From the NCBI RefSeq assembly GCF_000512895.1, contig NZ_CP007033.1:2219001-2283000 (forward strand): a stretch of DNA of 64,000 nucleotides. The letters are read 5' to 3'. The translations under genes were made by a program, and so were the position numbers. Positions within the stretch are counted from its first letter, which is position 1. Every line of letters starts with the position of its first letter. Source of the DNA: Dehalobacter restrictus DSM 9455. GTDB lineage: Bacteria > Bacillota > Desulfitobacteriia > Desulfitobacteriales > Syntrophobotulaceae. This document shows, in pieces, positions 31,398 through 34,321 of this stretch. The notes under the pieces were generated by a model. The model did no database searches. It saw only the letters and a program-made list of their open reading frames with translations, and had not been told where the DNA came from.

Positions 31398-33566
31398 TTA
31401 AAATAAATGAAAAGAAAAGTCGATGTTAGGCAAGACCATTTGAATCAGATAGAAAAAATCCTGATAATGCCATGAACACGTGATCAGAATGCCAAAAAAG
31501 ACTGTGGCTGGAACGATCAGCAGGCGTGAGTGTTTCCCACCGGCTTTCCAGGAGCCTCTGATCCTGGCAGGCAGGAATATAACGGACAGAAGGATATACG
31601 TCGCAATCGGGAAATAGTAAGGCATGCCGTATATTGTCAGCACGAAAGCAACGCCAACAAGAACAATCCAGCCGTATTTTCTTTCCATCCAGCATGTCAG
31701 CCCCAACGTCCCCGGATTTTGAGGGAAGGCTGAAGCTGCAACACCAACCTGCAGCAATCTTAAGACGATCAAAAAGAAGGAGATAAGGATGCAGACAAGT
31801 GCGAACGGGAGATCCTGTACTTCCTTAAGCCAGGTGAAGTCATAAGAAATCCAGGGCGGTATGGTATCGACCGGCAAATTAAAAAGTGGAGAAGCAACAA
31901 TCGCTCCGAGCGTTCCCATGCGGGCCACGAGCGACAGACAACACCAAAAAAAAGCTCTGCGCACGGCCCTTTTGGGCAAATCATTAAACAGCTCCTGGTA
32001 TTTCCATTTAATCGAGAAGAAGTTTTGGGCGCTCAAAAACACGAGGCAGATCAGCCATAAAATTACGGCAACTTTTTCCGTTTTCCATTTGGAATCTGAT
32101 GGTTGCACCATGTTGGCTGACCCATCGGAATAATAAGTCAGTTTTCCCCATTCACCCTGCAATCCTTCAGGCAGGATCAAAATATTCTCTGTTACGCTTG
32201 AATCAACCGGACCTTTTGGGAATGAAAGTTGATACTGTGAAAAGCCGGAAATCATATCTCCAGCCTTCCGAAAGTATTCTGAGGAAGCCGCGGAATCATC
32301 AATGCCTTTGGCAATCGTCCAGGCTAATACCGACGGATGCTTTGCCGCAACGGCAGCAAGATCTTCAAAAACCGCCGGATCCGGTATCTTAGACGACGCC
32401 GTAAAACCGACAGGCATTTCCAGCCATACGCCCACGCCAAGCTTGTCTGCGGCATACAGCCAGCTCTCATCAGGGAAGAAGCCCATAAAGCAGATCACAT
32501 GATAGCCGCCGGATTTAAGGTTCTTCAGAAAGGTCTCCGTCTGGCGCTGATTTCGAATTGTGTAATCCTGTTCCTGGGAAATGATTTGGCCCCGGACGTC
32601 CAAGGCTGTACCGTTCATTATCCATTTTCCGTTTGCTGTTCCCAGCTGACGGATTCCGACCGGGAGCTGAAGACTGTCATAGCCTCCGCGGTTATTGGTT
32701 ATATTCAGATTAAGCTCATACAGGAAAGGATCTTCCGGACTCCAGGAATGCGCAGTCGGCACCTGAAAAACCAGCTCCGCGTCTTGCTCAAATTTGCCGT
32801 TGGTACTCAGCGGAAGTACACATTCGGCGAGCTTCTGCTGATTAGCGGTTAAAGCTCCGTTTAAGACCCAAGGTCCTTGCTCCAGCATATCGTGATGCTT
32901 GATCTTCACGCGGGCCTTCACTTGCTTTTTCGCTGAATCATACGAAACAGCTATGCTCGATAAATCAATGGTCGTTTCTGATACTGCCTCCAAGCGTACC
33001 TGACCGGTAATTTTTCCTTGTTCCGGCCATAACCAGCCAAAAATTCTGTTCTGCTGAACGCTGTTCTTCTCAGCCTTCAGGTACAACGTGTTTTCCTTGC
33101 TGAAATCAAATCTGGAGGCAGGAAAGTTTAAAATATATACGCCGCCGTTTCCTTCAACTTCACCGATCAAATTCACATCATCAATGCCGTTTAAGAATAC
33201 GCTTACCTTTCCGTTTACCCCTTCCAGAACCAACTGAGCCGTCTTGTAACTCCATTTGCCGGTAACAGAAAATTTTTTAGCGGCAACATCGAACCCTTGA
33301 CTCGAAGGTATAATCAAATCTTTGGCCTGGTTGAGGTCCAAAACATCAATCATGTTATCCATTGCCTCATTTTCATAGGTCAAAGCCTGTCTTAAGCTTG
33401 AATAGCTATTCCATTTTCCGCCTAAGTCCTGGGCAATCCTGTACGGTTTAGTGACAGGGTTATCACTGTATAGTTCAACACCCGGAGTGTTTTCCCAGCA
33501 TATGGATACTGCAAGAGCAGCAATAATAAACATCGAAACAAGTATGACTGTAAATCTTTTAAACAT
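31398..33566 (-). CDS. Membrane-anchored glycoside hydrolase family 2-like protein, catalytic Glu apparently missing
   Basis: A 722-residue protein. An N-terminal membrane helix (about 4-22) is followed by an extracytoplasmic part resembling GH2: jelly-roll sugar-binding domain (about 70-190), Ig-like domain (195-310) and a partial TIM barrel (315-440, with GVGVWLEMPVGF). The conserved segment HPSVLAWTIAKG aligns with the GH2 acid/base region, usually ending SLGNE, but here the Asn-Glu is Lys-Gly. From about 499 onward it has four to six membrane helices. A non-catalytic, membrane-integrated carbohydrate-binding role is inferred; no named family is certain. Start: ATG at 33566, GAGG four bases upstream. 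Confidence 0.65.
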   Translation of the reverse strand: MFKRFTVILVSMFIIAALAVSICWENTPGVELYSDNPVTKPYRIAQDLGGKWNSYSSLRQALTYENEAMDNMIDVLDLNQAKDLIIPSSQGFDVAAKKFSVTGKWSYKTAQLVLEGVNGKVSVFLNGIDDVNLIGEVEGNGGVYILNFPASRFDFSKENTLYLKAEKNSVQQNRIFGWLWPEQGKITGQVRLEAVSETTIDLSSIAVSYDSAKKQVKARVKIKHHDMLEQGPWVLNGALTANQQKLAECVLPLSTNGKFEQDAELVFQVPTAHSWSPEDPFLYELNLNITNNRGGYDSLQLPVGIRQLGTANGKWIMNGTALDVRGQIISQEQDYTIRNQRQTETFLKNLKSGGYHVICFMGFFPDESWLYAADKLGVGVWLEMPVGFTASSKIPDPAVFEDLAAVAAKHPSVLAWTIAKGIDDSAASSEYFRKAGDMISGFSQYQLSFPKGPVDSSVTENILILPEGLQGEWGKLTYYSDGSANMVQPSDSKWKTEKVAVILWLICLVFLSAQNFFSIKWKYQELFNDLPKRAVRRAFFWCCLSLVARMGTLGAIVASPLFNLPVDTIPPWISYDFTWLKEVQDLPFALVCILISFFLIVLRLLQVGVAASAFPQNPGTLGLTCWMERKYGWIVLVGVAFVLTIYGMPYYFPIATYILLSVIFLPARIRGSWKAGGKHSRLLIVPATVFFGILITCSWHYQDFFYLIQMVLPNIDFSFHLF

Positions 33567-33644
33567 AAAACCTCGCAAAATCTTGCATTTTCATATTTAT
33601 TTCGAGCAAAGCCCTAAAAAAACCTGCAAAAAATTAGAAAACTT

Positions 33645-33665
33645 GGCTGCCAAGCTTTGGCAGCC
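33645..33665 (-). terminator. Terminator after perR
   Basis: Perfect 9-bp stem GGCTGCCAA / TTGGCAGCC with a 3-base loop. The minus strand continues AAGTTTTCTAATTTTTT. It lies about 155 bases beyond the perR stop and ahead of the GH2-like gene. Confidence 0.75.
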
Positions 33666-33819: not shown

Positions 33820-34251
33820 TTATTCTTTGCTGTCTTGACAACCTGGACATACCCCATAAAACACCAGGTTATGGGTATGCACATCAAAGCCTGTTTTATC
33901 AGTGACCATTGCATCCATATCAATTAATGCGCTATGAAAATCGACAACCCTGCCACATCTCGAACACATCACATGATAATGGTTTACCGGATTACCATCG
34001 AAACGGCTGGACATATCCCCACAAGGAAGTTCCAGAAGAAACCCATGTTCCTTGAGCATATTCAGTGTGTTGTAAATCGTGCCCAGGCTCACACCGGGGA
34101 ACTTCGTCTTCACCTGTTTGTAGATCTCTTCCGCAGTGGGATGGGAATCAGTAACTAATAAAAATTCCAAAATTGCCTGCCTTTGGGGAGTAAAGCGTAT
34201 TCCCTTATCCTTTAATCCCTTTAGAATTTCGACAGCATTCACGGCTTTCAA
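33820..34251 (-). CDS. perR: PerR, peroxide-responsive Fur-family repressor
   Basis: A 143-residue winged-helix regulator. The metal-sensing residues of PerR are all at the same numbers as in Bacillus PerR: His37, Asp85, His91, His93 and Asp104. The structural zinc site is Cys96, Cys99, Cys135 and Cys138. Asp104 rather than Glu favours PerR over Fur. Oxidation of His37/His91 with Fe2+ would release DNA. A Per box stands 56 bases upstream, so autoregulation is likely. Confidence 0.93.
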   Translation of the reverse strand: MKAVNAVEILKGLKDKGIRFTPQRQAILEFLLVTDSHPTAEEIYKQVKTKFPGVSLGTIYNTLNMLKEHGFLLELPCGDMSSRFDGNPVNHYHVMCSRCGRVVDFHSALIDMDAMVTDKTGFDVHTHNLVFYGVCPGCQDSKE

Positions 34252-34306: not shown

Positions 34307-34321
34307 TTAGAATCATTATAA
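34307..34321 (-). promoter_or_regulatory. Per box upstream of perR
   Basis: Minus strand TTATAATGATTCTAA matches the Per box consensus TTATAATNATTATAA at all but one position. It sits in the AT-rich leader of perR, where repressor binding would cover the promoter. Confidence 0.85.

Follow-up and report, generated by a model that had tools for sequence, protein, structure and literature searches.

The window, a stretch of 64,000 nucleotides from Dehalobacter restrictus DSM 9455, contains on its reverse strand a gene for a membrane-anchored protein related to GH2 glycosidases, preceded by a sigma-H-like element, a terminator-like hairpin and the gene of a Fur-family regulator (Table 1). We refer to it as the pseudo-GH2 gene. 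Its reading frame is open from a TTG at 33578 and includes an internal ATG at 33566. Among 30 homologous loci, three are fragments and 27 include the start, and in all 27 the first residues at the place of this ATG are Met-Phe; the ATG is thus the likely start codon. The homologue search matched 39 of 41 genomes, and the alignment used below (A1) comprises 26 of the 30 loci, with the window sequence as L001 and without the near-identical L003 and the fragments L014, L015 and L016.

Table 1. Features of the pseudo-GH2 locus, in window positions; residues are numbered from the ATG.
Feature	Position	Strand	Basis
Whole gene, 722 aa, membrane-anchored pseudo-GH2 protein	31398..33566	-	ORF and homologue comparison
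N-terminal membrane anchor, residues 2-23, predicted N-in by charge	33498..33563	-	Helix 2-23 of the model
GH2 N-terminal beta-sandwich, about residues 41-200 (limits set by us from the model)	32967..33446	-	Profile and model; PF02837 below cut-off
GH2 Ig-like domain, about residues 201-312, PF00703	32631..32966	-	Pfam
Truncated, degenerate GH2 barrel, about residues 313-490	32097..32630	-	Model: five beta/alpha units, then short strands
HPSVLAWTIAKG, residues 410-421, Lys-Gly at the Asn-Glu position	32304..32339	-	Enzyme alignments, LacZ mapping, homologue columns
FPDE, residues 364-367; AHY(P/Q) in aligned GH2 enzymes	32466..32477	-	Alignments
C-terminal membrane domain, residues 495-722, no known family found	31401..32084	-	Pfam and structure searches
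Sigma-H-like element AGGTTTTTTTAGGGCTTTGCTCGAAA, first base 59 bases before the ATG	33600..33625	-	
Terminator-like hairpin between the Fur/PerR-type gene and the pseudo-GH2 gene	33645..33665	-	
Fur-family (presumably PerR-type) regulator, conserved upstream neighbour	33820..34251	-	

A partial GH2 fold joined to the membrane

Pfam scans with the single protein placed PF00703 over its cut-off (E 3.6e-7) and PF02837 below it (E 0.065), and PF00703 was present in all 26 aligned homologues. The NCBIfam models of beta-galactosidase and beta-glucuronidase matched the protein far below their own cut-offs, and the family profile matched solved GH2 enzymes with a best E of 1.5e-21, over residues 96-442. 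An AlphaFold2 model from 26 sequences had a mean pLDDT of 83.6 and a pTM of 0.79, with pLDDT under 50 at residues 70-79, 452-456, 482-492 and 716-722. When compared with known structures, the model gave the GH2 beta-glucuronidase 8dhe as best Foldseek match (E 7.1e-24), and in VIA-align it matched 6b6l with a Z of 27.6 and 3.8 Å over 417 residues, a count that takes in some membrane helix residues because the aligned range extends to residue 582; further GH2 entries were one to two Z units from 6b6l.

The modelled barrel consists of five beta/alpha units, after which come short strands and, from residue 495, membrane helices; the stretch that joins barrel and membrane includes the low-confidence segments 452-456 and 482-492. 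The protein does have a GH2 fold in its sandwich, in its Ig-like domain and in the barrel as far as the first half goes, and a whole barrel is absent. The original prediction, made from the sequence, had proposed just this layout of sandwich, Ig-like domain and partial barrel, and the match to GH2 enzymes together with the constant presence of PF00703 bears it out. It was also right that a short barrel runs into membrane helices; the number of these, given as four to six, is corrected to one N-terminal and five to six C-terminal helices.

Loss of the catalytic residues

Lys-Gly had been proposed to stand where active GH2 enzymes have Asn-Glu, and two comparisons confirm this. In the two enzyme alignments that reach this part of the protein (6mvf and 7vqm, both with W-x-x-x-N-E), Lys420-Gly421 aligns with Asn-Glu. 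Likewise, mapping by the family profile of residues 186-429 to LacZ 208-469 puts residue 421 at the place of E461, the acid/base Glu of LacZ. Column 421 of the 26 homologues holds Gly in 22, Glu in two, Ala in one and Phe in one, and column 420 holds Lys in 21 and Asn in none. The loss is not peculiar to this gene: the acid/base column is without Glu in 24 of the 26 homologues, and genomes throughout the order show the same architecture. Both sequences with Glu at this column (L008 and L010) come from one genus and have Leu in place of Trp416; their Glu is possibly a chance return.

In GH2 enzymes, strand 4 ends in an Asn followed by the acid/base Glu, at the place of Lys420-Gly421 in our protein, and strand 7 carries the nucleophile Glu, for which we found no counterpart. 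The two catalytic residues of LacZ are 76 positions apart. In our protein, the membrane helix at 495 comes just 74 residues after residue 421, with short strands in between that are partly modelled at low confidence, and residues 384-490 of the 26 homologues contain no Glu conserved at the 90% level. The predicted loss of the acid/base Glu is therefore real, and the part that would bear the nucleophile is missing as well. We also considered that a catalytic Glu had moved elsewhere. Across residues 24-722, the only Glu residues conserved at the 90% level are Glu65, Glu367, Glu383 and Glu628, the last in the membrane domain, and none of them forms a GH2 pair, so that the search for a conserved pair in the GH2 arrangement came out negative. 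The barrel domain PF02836 had no match in the protein, in its 26 homologues or in the D. restrictus genome. The retaining mechanism of GH2 enzymes cannot be used by the pseudo-GH2 protein.

Another part of the barrel has been remodelled in the family, where F-F-P-D-E-x-W replaces the AHY(P/Q) of the aligned enzymes. Pro365 and Trp369 are present in 26 of 26 homologues, Glu367 in 25 and Asp366 in 24.

Topology and membrane domain

In the model, helix 2-23 precedes the outer part and the bundle 495-722 follows it. Residues 1-5 have on average 1.9 K+R and 0.0 D+E in the aligned homologues. Loops 518-533, 614-633 and 667-680, with mean K+R of 4.7, 2.5 and 4.0 in the 26 sequences, are predicted inside, and loops 564-587 and 646-651 and the tail, with 1.0, 0.1 and 1.1, are predicted outside. 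The predicted topology thus has the N-terminus inside, the GH2 part outside and three membrane loops inside. No other membrane stretches are conserved as well as these inner loops, in which 29, 25 and 20% of the columns have one residue in at least 90% of the sequences, against 4 and 0% in the outer loops. Arg536, Trp626 and Glu628 are invariant in the 26 homologues.

Modelled alone from 45 sequences, the membrane domain reached a pLDDT of 87.8. Comparison of 45 members with Pfam gave a best E of 0.17, and no family matched more than two members. Against the PDB, the best Foldseek E was 1.1 and the best VIA match had a Z of 5.9 (5.7 Å over 156 residues), and among the matches listed by either comparison no known membrane fold had a strong score. 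A wider home for the domain was sought among 398 genomes of the phylum and rejected, since 11 of the 12 genomes matching at E 0.01 belong to the order and the sole match beyond it is marginal (E 0.009). Beyond the order, the listed matches to the full profile end at residue 437 or before and are GH2 parts. It appears that the membrane domain forms a family which awaits definition.

Distribution and selection

The profile matches 71 of the 82 genomes of the class, some of these 71 being rows of the search profile itself. By family, matches occur in 24 of 25 genomes of the family of D. restrictus, 45 of 45 of a second, two of three of a third and none of nine of a fourth, which belongs to another order. 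Genomes with two or three matches contain complementary pieces, seemingly of one gene. Scanning of named genomes gave nine loci: two from Gracilibacter, one from Candidatus Dichloromethanomonas and six labelled Peptococcaceae. A divergent homologue at L094:2008-4461 has an open frame of 819 residues, in which the query matches are split into three stretches. A scan for viral relatives with the single protein yielded two pattern matches, neither of them a relative.

The pseudo-GH2 gene is under purifying selection, with dN/dS values of 0.11-0.18 in the six pairs formed by four genes of the same genus. The barrel part, at 0.18-0.20, is the highest region in five of the six pairs, and the membrane domain shows 0.05-0.14. 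A decaying gene or a local mutation is ruled out by these values together with the presence of the gene in 71 of 82 genomes of the class; the pseudo-GH2 state is a family trait.

Neighbouring genes

Of 29 loci, 23 have a Fur-family gene (PF01475) upstream in the same orientation, at a distance of no more than 300 bases in 20; three of the six loci without it had less than 400 bases of upstream sequence. Partly from its box, we take this gene to be of the PerR type. Downstream, comparison with the window genes located mraZ, along with wall and division genes, in 17 of 27 loci. A patatin gene was considered as a fixed downstream partner and rejected, being present in just nine of 13 loci of the same family. 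In two loci of the second family the next gene has no Pfam match; to our eyes it looks MetE/uroporphyrinogen-decarboxylase-like. None of these neighbours supports the link to a transporter that the original prediction had entertained.

The two conserved genes are probably separate units. A stem followed by a T run was seen in 15 of 21 gap stretches, as judged by eye and with no control run; the hairpin of Table 1 is one of 11 terminator-like sites in the region, against 6.5 expected. At p 0.05, PerR-box-like sites occur in two of 22 gaps as compared with 14 of the 23 stretches ahead of the regulator gene. A member of a PerR regulon would have such a box in its own upstream region, and the gap of L075, a locus from the genus Dehalobacter, has none at p 0.05 (5 mismatches). 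Both the stem/T runs and the scarcity of boxes in the gaps argue against an operon. Upstream of the regulator, a PerR-box-like palindrome (34307-34321, one mismatch to the PerR consensus) and the regulator's own likely promoter overlap, which suggests that the Fur/PerR-type gene is autoregulated. Over the whole window, 11 PerR-box-like matches with up to three mismatches were counted, where shuffled sequence would give 3.6.

A sigma-H-like promoter element

Upstream regions set side by side share AGG(G/T)TTT and, further on, CGAAT. Among 54 upstream regions, each at most 160 bases long, 36 contain the pattern AGGNTT-N15/16-GAAW, against 0.55 expected from 100 shuffles of each, and 35 contain a stricter form; the motif was noticed in these same regions and then matched to a consensus, and the 54 loci are not independent cases, because they include close relatives (L001-L004 and others) and one genome twice (L010 and L064, both without a site). 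L062 and L063, with no upstream sequence, are excluded from the 54, and 18 of the 54 are without a site. As a control, 334 other open frames of at least 150 aa, taken in any frame from 24 longer loci and not proven genes, gave one match to the pattern and none to its stricter form. The Dehalobacter copies are imperfect, with GAAA instead of GAAT.

The upstream elements fit the sigma-H consensus RNAGGAWWW and RNNGAATWW given in the accessible text of PMC8510167, and, by our own count, the same spacing is found in the SigH promoters that the accessible part of PMC7438776 shows for ftsZ, frr and CD2063 of C. difficile. Within the D. restrictus genome, the N14-GAAT form has 21 sites against four for the reversed pattern, and 14 of the 21 fall within open frames of over 120 codons. 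The other two forms, one of which finds the window site, are not clearly above their reversed controls (10 to 8 and 7 to 5), and the motif TTGCAGGNTTTTT alone is not enriched in this genome (3 against 2 for the reversed pattern). The genome has a SigH gene over cut-off, and within a single frame of 748 aa two pieces match SpoIIE, each below cut-off.

Elsewhere in this genome, such sites (at L113, L116, L118, L120, L124 and L125) precede genes for a dGTPase, SpoVS, a PHP-domain protein, a polyprenyl-synthase-like protein, a CheA-like protein and a cell-wall protein with SLT and CWB2 domains. The SpoVS site has its first base 84 bases from the start codon, and the SLT+CWB2 site overlaps an opposite open frame. 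As far as the accessible texts go, spoVS depends on sigma-H in B. thuringiensis (PMC8510167) and is on the C. difficile SigH list (PMC7438776), and it is the only one of the six genes that these sources back as a sigma-H gene. Two Spo0A-type genes are over the curated cut-off (C1:1322131-1322922 and 1710114-1710899). The species with these sites is not reported to form spores.

Possible function

We tentatively favour, with somewhat less than an even chance of being right, a non-catalytic membrane protein that binds glycans of the envelope or organises the envelope as a scaffold. Binding or organising envelope sugars, rather than cutting them, is what we would expect because the cutting residues are gone, the gene is retained across the order and a promoter-like site usually precedes it. 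The remodelled top of the half barrel (FPDE loop, Glu383, Thr417 and Lys420) might be where the outer part binds a glycan or glycoconjugate from the envelope of its own cell, and the membrane domain could link this outer part with a partner at the inner face that belongs to the envelope or the division machinery. From the sigma-H-like element, expression would begin, or be maintained, as cells pass from growth into stationary phase or sporulation. According to the accessible text of PMC3910700, H2 is the only electron donor of D. restrictus and PCE/TCE are its acceptors; from this way of life, the lack of a PF02836 gene and the nearby wall and division genes, the ligand, if there is one, is likely an envelope glycan of the cell itself. 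Glycan binding may be wrong, because half of the GH2 sugar-binding pocket is missing. That the proteins form an order-specific family of transition-phase (sigma-H) receptors, in which the dead half barrel, its pocket newly specialised, reads the cell's envelope glycan on the outer side and a new membrane domain reports or anchors it to an inner-face partner, seems to us rather unlikely.

A signalling receptor, whose outer pseudo-GH2 part would sense a glycan or the state of the envelope and whose inner loops would signal to a putative cytoplasmic partner, is suggested by the receptor-like arrangement of the model and by the strong conservation of those loops; we rate it a minor possibility, as Pfam scans found no signalling domain in the protein and no kinase or response regulator was identified in the part of the neighbours scanned. 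Nor is it likely that the GH2 shell is a structural scaffold only, that is, a spacer or interaction platform for envelope or division proteins that binds no sugar. Many residues that never vary, the LNG and GxW motifs among them, belong to the GH2 fold, and residues 426-490 are poorly conserved (5% of columns), as a mere scaffold would allow; however, barrel strands 1-4 are conserved much like the sandwich (21 and 19% of columns; all region means from 23 of the 26 rows), and the FPDE loop is specific to the family.

An active enzyme of different chemistry is improbable. It could use Asp366, Glu367, Glu383 and Lys420, all well conserved as detailed above or, for Glu383, in 24 of 26 homologues, or else the invariant Arg536, Trp626 and Glu628 at the inner face; yet Glu383 is Ala in two of the 26, and the membrane domain has no recognised enzyme family. 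Three of the aligned active GH2 enzymes also have Glu at the place of Glu383, which, with those two Ala residues, means that it need not be catalytic. Transcription with the Fur/PerR-type gene as a peroxide-stress gene, for which the position of that gene speaks, is highly improbable in view of the stem/T runs and of the few PerR-box-like sites in the gaps.

A literature search on inactive GH2 proteins found nothing related, and term searches of the accessible text of the proteomics papers PMC12016555 and PMC9888536 found no mention of the pseudo-GH2 protein. What is new here is the sigma-H-like element upstream of the pseudo-GH2 gene, a promoter predicted from sequence. Through its conservation, an envelope protein still without a name would be linked with the transition phase, and the function of this protein thereby becomes testable in a relative that can be handled. 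The only family matches of the protein are to GH2 glycosidases, as which it could not work, and a name derived from them would mislead. A sugar-degrading role makes little sense because the order includes an organohalide respirer described as living on H2 and chlorinated ethenes.

A non-catalytic envelope protein, as we propose, can be set beside three known systems. With the GH2 beta-glucuronidases and beta-galactosidases (8dhe, 3cmg, 6b6l and LacZ) it shares the sandwich and Ig-like domains as well as the first half of the barrel; unlike them, it has an added membrane anchor and membrane domain, the nucleophile half is missing and the acid/base Glu is absent from nearly all homologues. Pseudoenzymes that keep a glycosidase fold exist as a general kind, and they have in common with our protein a retained fold, a lost catalytic pair and purifying selection, but here the barrel is only half there and is joined to a membrane domain for which no family was recognised. 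Finally, 7TMR-DISM receptors likewise combine an outer beta-sandwich with a multi-pass membrane part, whereas the pseudo-GH2 protein has a GH2 shell outside and no signalling domain found inside.
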